Shown in pieces: positions 45,781 through 54,760 of a stretch of DNA of 64,000 bases. Origin of the DNA: Rhododendron vialii (lineage: Eukaryota > Streptophyta > Magnoliopsida > Ericales > Ericaceae); NCBI RefSeq assembly GCF_030253575.1, contig NC_080569.1:1632001-1696000 (forward strand), read 5' to 3'. Position 1 is the first letter of the stretch; every line of letters starts with the position of its first letter. A program made the position numbers and the translations under genes. The notes below the pieces were generated by a model that made no database searches, was not told the origin of the DNA, and saw only the letters and a list, made by a program, of their open reading frames with translations.

Positions 45781-46585
45781 CAGTGCCGGCTCTGGGCTAA
45801 GGCCCAAGAGGCCTGAGCCTTAAGCCCTAAAAAAAGCTCATAAACTAGGGCCCCCATCTGTTTTAAGTACCTAAGTATATATGTTTGTTATAAGGCCTAT
45901 TTTTAAACTCAAGGCCCAATGTTCTCCTCCCCCACTGGCTATTGTGAACATGGCCCAGTTAAAAAGAACATGGAACCGAGAAATAAACAAAACAAAAAAA
46001 AAAACTTTTTTTTTGAGGAAGGGCAAGAAGGTAATTTCACCTATCAAACTCACATAGGCAATTGTTGATCTTCGGGGCCCTTGAAATTTATTCAGTGTGG
46101 ACCGTGTGGTGGGTGCACTGTGCATCATTACCATCATCTTTTCCCCTTTTACACAAACACTATCCCATTGCGAACAAACGCAAGAAAGGAAGAACGGACC
46201 GGCCAGAGAAAAAAAAAATACCAAGAAGAAGAAGAGTGATGTTTAAATAACGATAATGATGCTTCTGAAATATTGCGATTTTATTGTATTTTTTGTGGGA
46301 TTTTTCGCGTTGAATACATGTATTTAGTTTTAAAAAATTTATTTATCAACTCTTTTTTTTTTTTTGTATACATTTATTAAAGGCCTATTTTTTAGGCGGC
46401 CTTGCTATTGTCAACCCACTGGACTGACGATAAATACATTAAAAGATAAGAAAAATACGCATTTCTGTGCACTTTTTACATCATTTAATACACATCATAC
46501 ACATACTATCATCAGCCCATTGAACTGATTTTAAAATTTTTCATTTTAAGATCGTTTTATACCCAAAATCTCAGAGCCGACCCTG
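45781..46585. mobile_element. Non-autonomous hAT element, about 805 bp
   Basis: Termini CAGTGCCGGCTCTG and, inverted, CAGGGTCGGCTCTG. Flanks are GTTACATT (45773-45780) and ATTACATT (46586-46593), an 8-bp duplication with one change. The interior has AGGCCTGAGCCTTAAGCCC-like family phrases and no transposase. A short dispersed repeat (CCACTGGACTGACGATAA at about 46415) lies inside. Confidence 0.8.
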
Positions 46586-46774
46586 ATTACATTTACTTGT
46601 ATGTCCATCTTTATTGAGTCGTACATTTTAATTTCTTATTACTCACCAACCAATGAACGGCTGGCCGCTTGCCCTTTCCATATACATACGGTTACTTTCG
46701 CGTCAAAAATTCCGTATTCGTAGCCCCTGTCCACTTTTTCCTTCTCTCTCTCTCGTGCCCTAAAAACAGACAGA

Positions 46775-49700
46775 ATGGAAGACAACGAGACCGTAATCCA
46801 ACAAACGAATCGGGAAGATTTCGGAAAGTCGGAGTACGGGTATGTAAAATCTATCTCTCTCTCTCTCGTTGCACATGCAGTTGTCGTTTTTATTTGTCTT
46901 CACCCTTTGATTCTTCGACGAATGGCCAGTGAATCCGCAGCTTTCTAATTTGTGTTTTCAATGGTTTTGGTTTTCCGTTTGACAGCTGCGAGCATTATAA
47001 GAGACGATGCAAACTTCGCGCCCCTTGCTGCGGTCAGATCTTCTCTTGCCGCCACTGTCACAACGCCGCCACGGTCCCCTCCCCTCCCCCTCTGTACATA
47101 TGCGTACTATATATATATATATATACACACACATACACGCGCGCGCGCACACATGTCTATACATATGTGTAAAGATCTAGGCAAATAGTTTGTTTGTGTT
47201 TTTTTGGATGATTAAGCGGTTCATATGTCAGCAAATAGATGTGACTCATGTGAACTATGAGAATGTCTAGAAACACAACAATTTGCATAACATTGTGCAC
47301 AACTTACCCATGTGGCACTGTTTTGTTGGTCATTAAGTCAATTGATAATTTTGAACAATAGTGCTAGCACCACAAATACGAGACCAAATCCCTTGTCCGA
47401 GTGAAATCTAGACGGGCTTCGGAGCCGTTGATCTCGCAAATCAATGGTTGAGATCTGTCGGCAGATCTCAACCGTTGATTTGCGAGATCAACGGCTCCGA
47501 GGGGTGGGACAGGCCCCTATCCGGATTTCACTCGGACAGGGGATCCTCGGTGCACAAATACTTACAGCATGTGCACCAATGCTTAGCTGAATTACCTTGT
47601 GAATAGTTTACAATTCTAGTTTAGCTATCAACTTTTTCTTTCACAACTATACCGACTCTATCTATTTTACCTAACACAATTAAAATATCCATTTTCTGTA
47701 TGTTTATATATTAAAAAATAAGGTTAAAAAATTAAGTACTTCAATTTACAATCCGTTTGAACCATTGTGAAGATGTTATTCTGGTCATATTATTCTAAAG
47801 GGTCATAGTTAAATTTTGTCGACTTTCATAATTAAGTTTTTGCTCCATTGGGTCCCAAATAAAGAGCAGAAACTTAATTATGAGAGCCCTAGAGACGAAA
47901 ATTAATTATAACTCTTTAGAACAACATGATCAGAAAAATAAAATCTTCACACCGGTTCAAATGGATTGAAAATTGGAGCACTTAGTTTCTTAACCATATT
48001 TTTAATACATATGAAAAATCTAAAAGAGTTTTGGTTATTATAATACTACGTAAGAGAGAGAAGAATTAAATAATCGTTTTAATGAGATTTCGAATGAACA
48101 GTAGTTTGGTATTAATACCGAACTTTTCTGGGGAAGGGAAAATACCGAAGGGTTTTGCTAACCTGGTGCAACCTGTTTTTGGTGTATTGATTAGGTAAAA
48201 TGGCTCCACATGTTCCTTTTGCGATTCCGCTGCACATGCTCTTACACAAACACATTGACATTCACTGTGGGGCCTGCACACGCTGCAGGTGACACAAACA
48301 CTCACATTCATGCAGTGTGTGCAGGCCCCACAGTGAACGTGAGTGTGTTTGTGTAAGTTTGCTGTGTGTGTGGGCCCCACAGTGAATGTGAGTGTGTTTG
48401 TGGTGCTAGAATGATTGAATTTTCAATCCCCAATGAAGTGATGCCACGTAACATGATGTGCACATTGTTGTGTATTCGGTTGTGTGTAGCATGGCCTTGT
48501 CAGATATTGCAATGAAGGTCATTAGTTTTAATTATAGTGTTCACATAAACCAATGACCAGCAAGCCAACTACAGCAAGAGGAAACACACAACTAACATAG
48601 AAATAACACTTTCAGTACCCAAGAAGCTAAGGCAAAAGCAAAATAACCACTGCTCATGTAACCCACGAGGAAATAGTACTAAATTTAATGTGTCCTTGTA
48701 GATTTGAAGTGGCTAATTTTGCGATACGTATAGGTGTATGCACGACACACACATGAATTTTCTGATATTGATTGTTTTTTGGTTAATTTTCTTGGTTTCT
48801 TTGAATTAGAGCGCTTTGAGCAATCCCAAGGATCATCATGAACTCGTTCGGCGGGATGTTTCGCAAGTATGTTCTTGTAGCTTTAGAGATGGCATCCTTT
48901 CTTGTTACTTACTTTCTGTCTCTCGTTAATATTTTTGGAATTTGATGGTCCCAGGTCATCTGTGCAGTCTGCGATACCGAGCAACAGGTTTAGCACTTTG
49001 CAATTCAGACTAAAGTTTGTTTCTTTTTGTGTTTTGATTTTGTTTTGGTCCTCAAGTATGATATTATGTTGAACTTTTTGTTTTGTATGCTTTAGGTTGC
49101 TCATGTGTGCTCAAGATGTGGCGTCAAAATGGGAGCATATTTCTGTGAAATTTGCAGATTCTACGATGATGATGTAAGAAAGCTGTCCCATTTTGTGGCT
49201 AATTGGCCTTGATTATACTTAGATGTAACCTTGGGATTATTTTTTTCATCTATTTCTTCCCCATTTAAATGATGCAATATATTACTTATTTATGTTGCAG
49301 ACCACGAAGGAACAGTTCCATTGTGATGATTGTGGTATTTGTAGGTTAGTTAGCCAAGTTATATATTCCTTTCCCATATTGGTTGTGCGTTGTTTACTTG
49401 ATTTATTGAGAAATGTATTCTCCCATATCGTCAGTCAAGTTGATTGTCGTTCTGATACAAGTCATGATTCTCTACAGAGTTGGTGGTCGGGAGAAATTCT
49501 TTCACTGCAAGAAGTGTGGTAAGCGTTCTGACTTTCTTCCTGGCTATGCGATCATTCGACTTTTGGGTTTGTATTCATCTATTGCATGTTTTGATTGCAT
49601 TTTTGGTCTTTGATGCAATGTCTTGGACTGGATATCAAAAGGCTTATGATTTATGACTTACTATTGCTGACTTTTTGCGAGACAGAAAGACTGCATGTTC

Positions 49701-52700
49701 ATCACGTGATTGAATCAAGGACTTGACTTTACGACATTGGCATTGACTTTATAGCACATCATTTTTATTTCCTTGCTTACACTATTTATTTGATCCTTCG
49801 TGTTTAGCAGCAGTTGACAATCTTTAAGAAATGCAAGTGAAAATGACGATGAAATGTTTGAATTCTCTTTAGTATACCTTTTTAATGTACAGATACAGAG
49901 GTTTCTGATGACTTATCGACTGTAGCAGATTCTCTGTATTAACTTGGCAAGAGAAGGCCACATTCAATCCAACGTGGAGATTATTAATTATAACAGAAGT
50001 TCATCAGGGATTATATTGGATATGAGATGGATAACCTTTTTTCTGAGGGTTCTCCTTGATTATACTTGAATATCCATTACCATTTGACTTCCTGTTGCGG
50101 AGACAGCGTCTTGTTATGCCTCAGATATGCGAGATAATCTCTTTTGTGTTGAATACATTTTAGGAAGCGTTGCCCAATCAGTTTTGAGTTTTGCATTTGG
50201 AAACTCTACGAAGTCCATTGAACATGATGTTGGCCCCCATTTGACTTTCTCTTGTGGAGGACATCATCTTATTATGTCTTGGATATGCAAGATAATCTCT
50301 GTTGTGTTGAGAATAAGGAATGATTGCCTGATCAGTTTTGAGTTTTGCATCTGGAAATTCTATATTTATGGTTGAATTCTAATGTTCCCAAGAACAGCCT
50401 TGCACTTTACCCCCTTGTCATACGACCCTTGTTCACGTCACCTCCTTGGCATTGAGAATATGAAAATGTGCCCTCATGGGTTTGGACCAAGATGCACAAC
50501 TGTTGTAACTCCTTTTACAAAGGAGGTCCTATTTCTGATGTGATTGAACTTGAGATGGAGAGAGAGAGAGGGAGGTGGACAGAGAGTGTGCATCATGTTT
50601 GAAACCTAAGTAAATGTCCATTTATAATCTAGCATGATGAACTGTATATTTGATATGTATGCATTACATTAATGCGTCAATGTATTTGTTTCAACTTTCA
50701 TGTGTTGCCATTGACAATTTTTTACCTGTTGTAGCATTATTACTATTTGACCCTTCTATCACTTCCTTTTGGTTTAATCGTTCCAATTTCATCACTTCAA
50801 TCTGCCCTACTGTTACCACTCTAATAATTACCATCCCCCGTTACATGGTCTTGTGTAGAACTCAACTCCAAAAACTAGACGTTGAAGTAAGGATGCCCTC
50901 ACGCTTATAGATTTCACGTTAATGTGGTACTCAGGTGATGTGGTGCTCACTCAATAGCACCTGCAGTGTGCAGGCTAGAGACACACACCCTACACACCCC
51001 TGGTACCTAGTTGGCTAGCTCTAATATCATGTTACACGGTCTAGGCTAGAACTCAAGCCCTAGCAGTGGAAGTGAGGATGCCCTCACGCTTATATACACT
51101 TCGTACTACTTTGGTATTCAAGCAATGTGGGACTTTGCTTCACACAATACCAAAGCAATGTGGGACTTCGTTTCACACCCCCAACCATGGACATTGTAGA
51201 ATTTCTTTGTTATCAAGCTCAATAAAGGTTCAATCGAAATATAGTGTCCCCTAACTTGATTTTCTGTTTAAGAGGACAGCATCTTGCTATTCAGTGGATC
51301 TGCATGATAATCACTTGTGCGTTGAGAACTCCATGAAGAATCATTGCCCCATCTGTTATGAGGTTTGCATCTAGAGATCTAATGTGTTTGTTTGAATCTC
51401 TTTGTTTTCTACCTCTACTGATAATCAGAAATATGTGCTATTATGGCAGTATCTATTTGATTCGGTCCAAAGCACAGCAATAATGAGGTGTGGACACACA
51501 ATGCATAAGAATTGCTTTGATGATATGCTTTGCCAGAATCAGTAATCTTCTGTCTATCTTGATAATTTTCTTTTCTTTTTTTCCGTTTGTTCTTCCAAGT
51601 CGAACATTTTTTAGTAGCTTTAAATTTGTGGCATCATCATCCAGGTATCGTTGTCCTATCTGCTCGAAGTCAGTGTGTAACATGTCAAGAGCCTGGGAAA
51701 GATTAGATGAGGAGGTATGGACTTAGTTTTCCTTTGTTTTTTTTGTTCTTTTTGTTCTTTTTTTTTATCCCCATATTAAGTTACCTTGTGTTGTTTAGAG
51801 TCTGCACTCTCCAGTGGTCCTCAAAACACGAAAGATTTATTGGAGAGTAAAACCGTATCAAGAGGAAAGCAAGCAACTACGACCATATTCAATTTTTCTC
51901 TGCCTTCTTACGAATTGTCTATCTAAGGATTCGTATCATGTGTGTGCTGCTGATCAATCTCATAAAAGATGATTTTTGTGCTGCAAGGCAGTAAATATCC
52001 TTGACGTGTGTTGGATGAAGAGTTTATTGGATATATTTGCAATGGAGGATTTTTCTTATGTACATTAGCAATTTTGCAATGTCCCCGAATGCTCATGATT
52101 TACATTTTCCTAATTTTGAAAAGTGGCGTTTGGATAAGATCCTTAAATGACTTATTTGACTTTTGTGGAAGAAGTAAGCTGAAACCTAATAATTAGCCAT
52201 CATCCACCTTGGTAAAACAAGTGAAAATATGAATCCCAGTTATTAGACCTAATGAGAAAACTAAAAATACTTGAAGAGGTTTCACGAAATCCTGAATCAT
52301 GTTCAGGTACGTATGGTCCATGTTGGAAAAAAGGGGAAAGCACAAGCCTTGTCAAAAGTGGTGTCAAGGGGAGCGTGGGGCATATTTTGGTGGTCTAAGC
52401 CTTGTGCTGTTGTGCATGTGGACTAACATTTGATATGATTCGTCGTCTTCCTTTGTCGTCCTTTTAAATGGAATATCCCACACAAGATTCGTCTCTCTGC
52501 AGCATGATAATTTTTTTCTTGCAGATAAAAGGTACTGCGATGCCTGAGGAATACCATTATGAGGTAAATCTTGTATACTAGTTTTTGTTAATTGGTTTAC
52601 TTTGGCATTAGCATCATTGATTACCCTGTGACATATGACTGATGGCATCTGTTTTCTACCAAATGCTGTGTTCGGAAGGAATGTCGTGGAGTAATGCCAT

Positions 52701-53222
52701 TTCCATTTTTTTTTTTTCCTCTTTCTGATCAATGGTCATTTCCTCTTTGGAAAGGGGAGAGTGTTGCTTAACAAAATACACAAAAAAGTATAAGTAGCTC
52801 TGTTTTTTTTCTTTTTTTCTTTTCGTGTGTGTGTATGTGGAAGGACATGAAGTAGCTCTTTAAACATCTGCATTTAAAGAGATCTTAGTTCTTCACTTCT
52901 TTGTAGAAGACAAGCTTTTTCTCAAGTTCTTCAAGTAGGCATCAAATTTCTGTAACCTGCGGTACTGGCCTCCAAGCATATTGCACGACTGTCTTGCACC
53001 ATGATGTCCGTTATACTATTTCCAAGGCAGTATTATTTAGGCTTGAATATCTCAAATACATATTCCAAGTTGCAAAAAAGTTGTTGCAAATGAATTTTGC
53101 AGGTTCAAATCCTCTGCAACGATTGTAACAGTCGGAGTGAAGCGTTCTTTCACATCTTTGGGCACAAGTGCAGGCACTGTAATTCATATAACACCAGGGT
53201 GATTAAGGGCAGATCCAGCTGA
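46775..53222 (+). CDS. CHY zinc finger and RING E3 ligase (PIRH2/MIEL1 type)
   Basis: Probable RING-type E3 ubiquitin ligase; plant relatives (MIEL1, CHYR1) act on transcription factors in ABA, drought and defence signalling. Twelve exons give 269 aa: 46775-46839, 46986-47073, 48810-48866, 48955-48987, 49096-49173, 49301-49344, 49478-49518, 51280-51362, 51450-51541, 51645-51714, 52525-52563, 53103-53222. The CHY finger starts at [16 protein letters not shown] (residue 22), followed by the CTCHY part ([39 protein letters not shown]). The C3H2C3 RING uses C158, C161, C177, H179, H182, C185, C197 and C200. A zinc ribbon (CNDC...CRHC) ends the protein. The exon 2 donor (ACG/GTCCCC) is weak; a second in-frame donor at 47103 would add ten residues. 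Closest recalled relative: At3g62970. Intron 7 holds decayed exon copies. Confidence 0.93.
47107..47155. repeat. Compound TA/CA/CG microsatellite, CHY intron 2
   Basis: (TA)n, then (CA)n, then (CG)n, then CACACATG. It starts just after the alternative exon 2 donor. Alternating purine-pyrimidine throughout. Confidence 0.9.
47380..47552. mobile_element. MITE with 9-bp TSD (Mutator-like)
   Basis: 173-bp near-perfect foldback: GGAGCCGTTGATCTCGCAAA pairs with TTTGCGAGATCAACGGCTCC. Flanks are CACAAATAC on both sides (47371-47379, 47553-47561). A 9-bp duplication fits Mutator-like elements, though the outermost bases pair poorly. It lies in CHY intron 2. Confidence 0.75.
48241..48402. mobile_element. 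Foldback with third arm copy, CHY intron 2
   Basis: CTTACACAAACAC...GTGGGGCCTGCACAC (48241-48281) pairs with GTGTGTGCAGGCCCCAC...GTGTTTGTGTAAG (48316-48357). A third arm-like copy, GTGGGCCCCACAGTGAATGT, follows to 48402. GT-rich and non-coding. Confidence 0.7.
50107..50188 (+). pseudogene. Decayed copy A of CHY exon 8
   Basis: 82 bp aligned to the true 83-bp exon at 51280-51362. The first half still reads [16 protein letters not shown] in frame; a one-base deletion then shifts the second half. The acceptor (GACAG) remains, but the donor GT is now TT. Flanking intron sequence on both sides is also similar, so a segment larger than the exon was duplicated. Confidence 0.85.
50265..50342 (+). 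pseudogene. Decayed copy B of CHY exon 8
   Basis: 78 bp. It resembles copy A (both end CAGTTTTGAGTTTTGCAT) more than the working exon. The acceptor AG has become AT, the donor GT is TT, and about five bases are lost. A phrase at about 50475-50510 (GGTTTGGACCAAGATGCACA) weakly resembles exon 9, so the duplicated block may have included that exon. Confidence 0.8.
50870..51200. repeat. Unclassified repeat insertion in CHY intron 7
   Basis: GGATGCCCTCACGCTTATA occurs at about 50891 and 51079. Two GCAATGTGGGACTT units lie about 33 bp apart at 51121 and 51155. Together they look like a transposon or its remnant between pseudo-exon B and the real exon 8. The family was not identified. Confidence 0.5.
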
Positions 53223-53622
53223 CCAAAATTGTTGATCTACGGCGCACATTTGATATTCCTAATTGGTTTTGCTTCCATATTTTTGACCCTATTAAGCAGG
53301 TCATTTCTTGTTGGCTGTTGTACAACACACAAGTTGTAACATCATTCTCCTCTGATTAGCCCAGCTTGGCTACTGTTAGGAAAGGACCAATTTCTTGTGC
53401 TTGGTTAGGTGATCTTTCAAGGCAAAGAAGTGTTATAGTATCTTTCAAGGTTGAATTGATATTTCTTTTATGTTTCGACAATAGGCTGAATGCATGAGTT
53501 TACACGTCTTTTGCATCTGTAAATTTGTTGTATATCTGTGACTCTGCGTGGAGATGTGAACTTCCTCAAAATGTTATACACACGTCTCAAATGCAAGAAC
53601 AAGAGTATAAATTAATTAATTT

Positions 53623-53955
53623 AGGGTCTGTTTGGAAAAGTTTTTATCTTCAGTTTTTTGTTTTTGTTTTCAATGTTTTTTGAACCAGGCACCATAAACA
53701 TGTTTGTGTAACTGGTTTTGCTTACAAAATACTATAATCAATTCTGCTAGTTTATGGAAATTCTAGAAACACAAAAATTGTGTTTTCATTTGTTTTGAAA
53801 ACACTTTCGGCAGTCCAAAAAATAAATAAACAAAAACTATTATAGTCACCAAATATGTTTTTTGTTTTTATTTTTTAACAAATAAACAAAAATTCATTTC
53901 TTGTTTTTTTTAAATGAAAAATAAAAAACTGACAACTCTATTAAACAGAGCCGAA
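53623..53955. mobile_element. AT-rich foldback, Tourist-like ends
   Basis: Begins GGGTCTGTTTGGAAAAG and ends ATTAAACAGAGCCG, a terminal type common in PIF/Harbinger-linked plant MITEs. Interior arms are rich in TTTTTGTTTTT and its inverse. A 3-bp TSD could not be confirmed. Confidence 0.5.
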
Positions 53956-54760
53956 CTTTCCTATTTGTTTTCAACCGACTCATTTAATTGTAGCGATAAT
54001 CCCTAATTTCCTACAGGGGATTTGCTTGGAGGAAAAGAAAGGGTTTGAATGAGGTTCGGCAAAAGATTTGGCATTAATGAATTATGGTACTGGTTCGGGA
54101 GGTTAACGTCAAGCTTGATGACTTTTCCTTCAACAGTTCCACTATTCCGAGGGATGAAGGAAAAAGTATTGGGATTTTGACCATTTGCATGGAAGTGTCA
54201 TTAGGTGGAGTATCATTTTCATTAATGTTAGATACCAAAAAAAAAACTTACCTTGAAAGTATTCAGAAAAAGAAAATCAATGGTTGAGATCATTTTTTGA
54301 GTGAATCTAGACCCTGATTTTTCTTTTCAGAGTACTTTCTTGGTAAGTTGTTTGGGTACCTAGCATTGCTCATGCTGGATCACATATTCACATGCATGTG
54401 TTTGAAGTGGAGCTTGAAAGGCAAGCTGGCCAACCACTCAAGTATTTTAAGAAATAACAACTTTTTAACGTCCAAATATCATTTTTTTTTTACTAAAAAG
54501 TGGTTATTTCTTGAAATACTTGGATAAAAGTAAAAAAAATTTACTTTTCCGATTCTTCTCGTCGAGACGAATCAATAACTTACAAAAGTTTGACGCGAAA
54601 TTAACAAATGCAAAAAAAAATTAAATAAAGACAATTTTCAAATTTAAGTTAAGGTCAAAAGAATGCAGCGGAAGTAAAACATAAAATAGATCGGTAGCAT
54701 CACTTCACCACAGGCGGGGAGCCATGGATGTGAAAGTCCCCTAAATTTGTTGCATCAATA

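Follow-up and report, generated by a model that had tools for sequence, protein, structure and literature searches.

The window analysed here is the whole stretch of 64 000 nt found at C13:1632001-1696000 of the Rhododendron vialii genome (532.6 Mb in 13 contigs). It contains, on the forward strand, a gene whose 12 coding exons were placed by hand on the basis of reading frame and GT-AG sites, and which, once spliced, give a frame open up to the stop that encodes a protein of 269 aa. Pfam domains are found in this protein in the order zf-CHY (PF05495, residues 23-96), zf-RING_2 (156-200) and zinc_ribbon_6 (205-262), i.e. the succession of CHY zinc finger, RING and zinc ribbon of the CHYR type, and its best matches among solved structures are with RCHY1. 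As judged from this domain content, the host gene is a plant CHYR-type ubiquitin ligase gene. The part of interest lies between exons 7 and 8, where the following features are found (a slash marks the splice junction here and below).

46775..53222, forward strand: host gene, CHY zinc finger/RING/zinc-ribbon (CHYR type), from the open spliced frame and Pfam
49478..49518, forward strand: exon 7, with donor GTG/gtaagc and phase 1 at its end
50080..50208, forward strand: copy A block, with the exon body at 50107-50188, flanked by intron sequence for about 27 nt on the upstream and 20 nt on the downstream side
50237..50362, forward strand: copy B block, with the exon body at 50265-50342
50840..51152, reverse strand: dispersed LTR mini-element of 313 nt, between copy B and the live exon and separate from the copies
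51280..51362, forward strand: live exon 8, 83 nt, entered in phase 1 and left in phase 0

Intron 7 extends from 49519 to 51279 (1761 nt), and the live exon 8 that follows it is bordered by a weak acceptor (gacag/C) and by a GAG/gt donor. The initial annotation had placed two degraded copies of exon 8 in this intron, about 1.1 kb upstream of the working exon, and both alignment and coordinates confirm it, with starts 1173 nt (copy A) and 1015 nt (copy B) upstream of that of the live exon. The aligned bodies measure 82 nt in A and 78 nt in B versus the 83 nt of the live exon. Copy A was said to have kept its acceptor and 16 in-frame residues, as is indeed the case: gacag/C is present at 50107, and the readable stretch ends at a 1-nt deletion that shifts the frame. 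In copy B, GACAT is found where the acceptor GACAG is expected, along with a 5-nt deletion and an in-frame stop. Both copies carry GAG/TT in place of the GAG/GT of the live exon, in agreement with the reported loss of the donor in both and of the acceptor in B. With their donors, the acceptor of B and the reading frames damaged in this way, the copies can neither be spliced in the manner of the exon nor encode protein. The homology runs past the exon, into about 27 nt of the upstream and 20 nt of the downstream intron, as expected for duplication at the DNA level and not for a processed copy. With gaps counted, identity is 80% between A and B (130 columns), 70.9% between A and the live exon (127 columns) and 71.1% between B and the live exon (149 columns), so that the two copies are closer to each other than to the live exon, as had been claimed.

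Alignment of the copies to the live exon revealed a similarity far above chance, and the case is one of intronic homology to the neighbouring exon of the same gene. The live block aligned to intron 7 with a local score of 130, whereas the best of 500 dinucleotide shuffles reached 43 and the best of 63 further 1.7-kb segments of the window reached 36; on the basis of the shuffles, chance was rejected as the source of the resemblance between exon 8 and the two copies. A profile built from the three copies recovered only A, B and the live exon in the window, with no further exon 8 copy below E = 0.7, the value of the next place. In a comparison of all 12 exons, one by one, with the 46000-54500 region, significant extra copies were found for exon 8 only. 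The remaining matches in that region were not convincing, the best being one of exon 6 on the opposite strand (25 nt, E = 0.029), followed by one of exon 12 (16 nt, E = 0.18) and another of exon 6 (E = 0.21).

Membership of A and B in an unrelated repeat had been named as one outcome that would speak against them being exon copies. Searches of the genome with the 50040-50400 stretch (A and B together) and with the live exon each returned the self-match alone; such searches would miss relatives at about 71% identity, as they miss the live exon itself when started from A and B, so that only close copies are excluded genome-wide. A search with most of the intron (49530-51230), also able to detect close matches only, found elsewhere just the part corresponding to the LTR mini-element. 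Thus, no dispersed-repeat membership of the copies turned up, a result that holds for close matches. The possibility that A and B are part of the dispersed repeat of intron 7 was rejected, the repeat (50840-51152) having no overlap with them.

The mini-element has two end repeats (50840-50959 and 51031-51152). Once trimmed, these agree at 80% of 114 ungapped positions, and with gaps included their identity is 67% over 162 columns. In the genome, at least 47 additional match rows were obtained for the element with 40 of 297 candidates scored, several rows falling at a single place. Seven other copies of the element were fetched, five of which contain one simple pair of ends with 89-93% identity, the other two (L004 and L009) being tandem or nested. 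Alignment of eight element copies revealed, between the ends, a stretch resembling a primer-binding site, which we presume it to be, as we also presume the element to be of the TRIM/SMART-like kind. The element, along with A and B, accounts for part of the length of intron 7. When the end repeats and the two exon copies are counted alike, identity over ungapped positions is 109/147 (74%) and 104/125 (83%), respectively, and by this weak dating the element could be of roughly the same age as the second of the duplications discussed below, or older. A putative long inverted repeat, around gatctcaaccgttgatttgcgagatcaacggctccg, was spotted by eye in intron 2 (window 47400-47540) and is perhaps a small mobile element.

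Nine paralogous loci, taken from the 90 match rows of a protein search of the same genome, were available for comparison. In five of them (L040, L043, L046, L047 and L048), exon 8 could be placed as an exon of its own, and intron 7 there measures about 65-277 nt versus the 1761 nt of the host gene. In L042, L044 and L045, residues around 110-186 match as a single unbroken stretch, and in L041 the exon 8 match is absent. None of the five separate exons 8 has a second copy, each matching only itself in its own locus (E ≤ 0.01). The profile of the three copies, applied to the window and the nine loci, recovered A and B along with the live exon, plus a single place in each of L040, L044 and L046, and no second exon 8 copy in any of the nine; its reach is limited, as it misses the exons 8 of L043, L047 and L048. 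With blastn, A, B and the live block matched exon 8 of L040, and the live block also that of L046. Copies A and B gave, in addition, 20-21-nt matches at L046:1555-1576, outside exon 8 (E = 0.013-0.032), which are taken as chance. A duplication common to the paralogs was rejected, blastn and self-comparison of the paralog exons having revealed no second copy.

The order of the events was addressed by building a tree on 107 columns from the two copies and the live exon, the outgroups being exon 8 of L040, L043, L046 and L047; the decayed-looking L048 was left out. The A+B grouping was recovered in 100 and that of A+B with the live exon in 99 per cent of 200 bootstrap replicates, and the topologies that pair the live exon with A or with B were rejected (p-AU 0.0010 and 0.0009, respectively). 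Since the tree unites the two copies and rejects the alternatives, it supports a second duplication that copied the first copy. A topology in which A+B branches off before the split between the host gene and L040 gave p-AU of 0.043, p-KH of 0.054 and p-SH of 0.22, so that the first duplication probably, albeit with weak support, took place after the split from this closest paralog. A count of sites with L040 as the outgroup, leaving out 7 gapped columns, yielded 12 sites changed in A and B together versus both the live exon and L040, compared with 3 changes on the branch of the live exon and 6 each in A alone and B alone. Two sites conflict with this pattern, B agreeing there with the live exon while A agrees with L040. 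They might be read, along with the presence of the whole exon and of short flanks in both copies, as the sign that A and B were each copied independently from the live exon. However, by taking into account the 12 changes common to A and B and the p-AU values given above, such an origin appears extremely improbable. Conversion of one copy by the other might imitate this signal.

The common changes also show how far the copy had decayed by the time of its doubling. Three of them are disabling: the G to T change in the donor (at the position of 51363), CAC to CTC, replacing His with Leu (51313), and TGT to AGT, replacing Cys with Ser (51354). The His and Cys residues align with identical residues of RCHY1, and we take them to be zinc ligands. 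Since both copies share the lost donor and the lost His and Cys codons, their common ancestor looks dead already at the time of the doubling. The sequence of one duplication followed by a second one of the dead copy, as put forward in the initial annotation, is therefore supported both by the tree and by the common disabling changes. The 10 exonic changes common to A and B are spread over codon positions 1/2/3 as 5/2/3, and the differences between A and B as 2/7/6, versus 2/5/9 for those between the live exon and L040. Neutral decay would produce a shift in this direction, but the departure from the live-paralog comparison is not significant (Fisher p = 0.25 for the common changes and p = 0.48 for the A-B differences). 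Thus, coding constraint on the copies does not appear to be visible, although with so few sites a short coding life would still be compatible with the data.

The length of the exon is of importance in this context. Since 83 cannot be divided by three, a copy added beside exon 8 shifts the frame, so that copies would be usable only as mutually exclusive alternatives. The copies lack what such exons need, namely a working acceptor and donor and a compatible length, their donors being lost and their bodies measuring 82 and 78 nt rather than 83 nt. A, B and exon 8 might nevertheless have formed a working mutually exclusive set in the past that was later lost: the copied block covers the exon and both splice-site regions, the length permits this type of use only, and A has kept 16 in-frame residues. 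This history is very unlikely, however, with the donor and the His and Cys codons found among the changes common to A and B, with the 5/2/3 spread of these changes, and with a second exon 8 copy in none of the five paralogs that have a separate exon 8.

Splice sites were scored with a rough matrix built from the sites of the host gene minus those of exon 8 (10 acceptors and 10 donors). The acceptor values are 0.6 for the live exon, 1.0 for A and −6.0 for B, to be compared with those of the exon 8 acceptors of L040 (7.7), L043 (3.1), L046 (4.4) and L047 (2.2). Among the 90 AG sites of intron 7, the acceptor of A ranks 24th and that of the live exon 27th, so that the matrix cannot argue for the use of the former. 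The weak gacag/C form, being present in both A and the live exon, probably predates the duplication. As a separate observation, the live acceptor, aagaggacag/C (51270-51280), is purine-rich and scores below the acceptors of the four paralogs, and a higher-scoring AG lies 7 nt upstream of it (exon start 51273), the use of which would cause a frameshift leading to a stop. With respect to donors, the 11 sites of the host gene score 3.3-9.8, 10 of them at 3.7 or more, and even the dead GAG/TT found in both copies is given 3.7. The GT sites within 40 nt of the lost donor of A score 3.5 (50212) and 3.2 (50228), better ones being found only at least 290 nt downstream (50479, 5.0; 50609, 4.7; 50656, 5.9).

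These values bear on the hypothesis that copy A still acts through low-level use of its acceptor, giving rise either to a poison exon or to a long alternative exon (50107-51362), with truncation before the RING and a reduced output of the protein. The higher score of its acceptor with respect to the live one in this small matrix would be in favour, as would the sites at 50656, 50479 and 50609, whose scores lie inside the host gene's donor range, and the frame, which is open from A to 50375 and would encode a shortened protein that has the CHY part but not the RING. As the sites now read, joining of exon 7 to A and exon 8 would give a 171 aa product without RING, and skipping of exon 8 a stop after three more residues. 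The donor of A itself, GAG/TT, the low scores of the nearby GT sites compared with the 3.3-9.8 range, the 24th rank of its acceptor and the lack of signs of constraint in the changes between A and B stand against such activity, which we consider very unlikely. Cryptic use of A is possible, with nothing specific in its favour. The variant in which A is a retained decoy, with its acceptor competing with the unusually weak live acceptor while lying closer to the exon 7 donor, would seem highly improbable from the sequence; if true, some transcripts would lead to truncated, RING-less products that tune the ubiquitin ligase dose or behave as dominant negatives. Most likely, A and B now do nothing.

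Taken together, the data make it very probable that exon 8, with a short intron collar, was duplicated into intron 7, and that the dead copy was then doubled to give A and B, which are likely functionless now. In the first step of this process, exon 8 was duplicated upstream into intron 7 in the lineage of the host gene, the short collars being copied along with it, as the homology running into both flanking introns shows. In the second, the copy lost its donor and the two conserved codons for His and Cys, drifting without visible coding constraint as far as the few sites tell. In the third, the dead copy doubled beside itself, about 157 nt away, to generate A and B, which then decayed separately, as the tree shows. 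Small-scale tandem duplication of approximately 130-160 nt is the likely mechanism of both events. The tails of A and B (50209-50236 and 50363-50395) are alike no more than shuffled sequences (716 of 2000 shuffles reach their score) and thus do not support an exact head-to-tail unit of 157 nt. The 0.9 kb that separates B from the live exon would derive from later insertions; the LTR mini-element, at about 0.31 kb, is the sole part of it identified, and about 0.6 kb is left unexplained by this account. As for the failure of the duplication, one-or-the-other splicing would have been the sole way to keep the protein whole, and nothing in the copies points to its having occurred.

Mutually exclusive exons are reportedly born by tandem exon duplication, as Kondrashov and Koonin are said to have described in 2001. 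The present copies share with them the presumed birth mechanism and a length that is not a multiple of three, but differ from them in lacking donors and, in B, the acceptor, in their broken frames and in showing no sign of use. Degenerate intronic exon copies are already a recognised class: the 'intronic match' class of Exonize, a study of 20 species, includes 'unannotated or degenerate (pseudo) exons' (PMC12343006), and unannotated duplicated exons have been surveyed in human, fly and worm (PMC9013439). Like the Exonize class, A and B lie in an intron of the same gene and on the same strand, are homologous to the neighbouring exon and have decayed splice sites and frame. What sets the present case apart is that two rounds can be ordered, the second of which copied a dead copy. 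With respect to the gene family, the host gene resembles other plant CHYR genes (PMC11924726 and PMC8625759) in its CHY, RING and zinc-ribbon modules; it has 12 coding exons, and 9 to 14 exons are given for B. napus CHYR members (PMC11924726). The available text of PMC11924726 makes no mention of intronic exon copies, the words 'intron' and 'exon' are absent from the main text of PMC8625759, and the host locus is named in no title or abstract opening returned by the literature search. The case offers a clean instance, in two steps whose order can be read, of a known type of genomic fossil. The view of it as a record of failed exon duplication, already expressed in the initial annotation, is supported by homology, decay and the ordering of both events with outgroups, here in a plant gene. 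Cases of this type provide a baseline for the rate at which exon duplications die with respect to those that become mutually exclusive exons; the copies alone leave the view of host gene function unchanged.

Two of the paralogous loci deserve a separate mention. L041 (C4:40971500-40977500) adjoins L040, the closest paralog, and appears as a partial duplicate of it, with three stretches 86-95% identical; a fourth stretch, at 100%, is merely the overlap of the two fetched regions, and residues 1-162 are unmatched in L041 at E below 1. L048 (C7:21393500-21401000) is a CHYR paralog that looks decayed, with a stop in the CHY part and an exon 8 of which only the first half matches.
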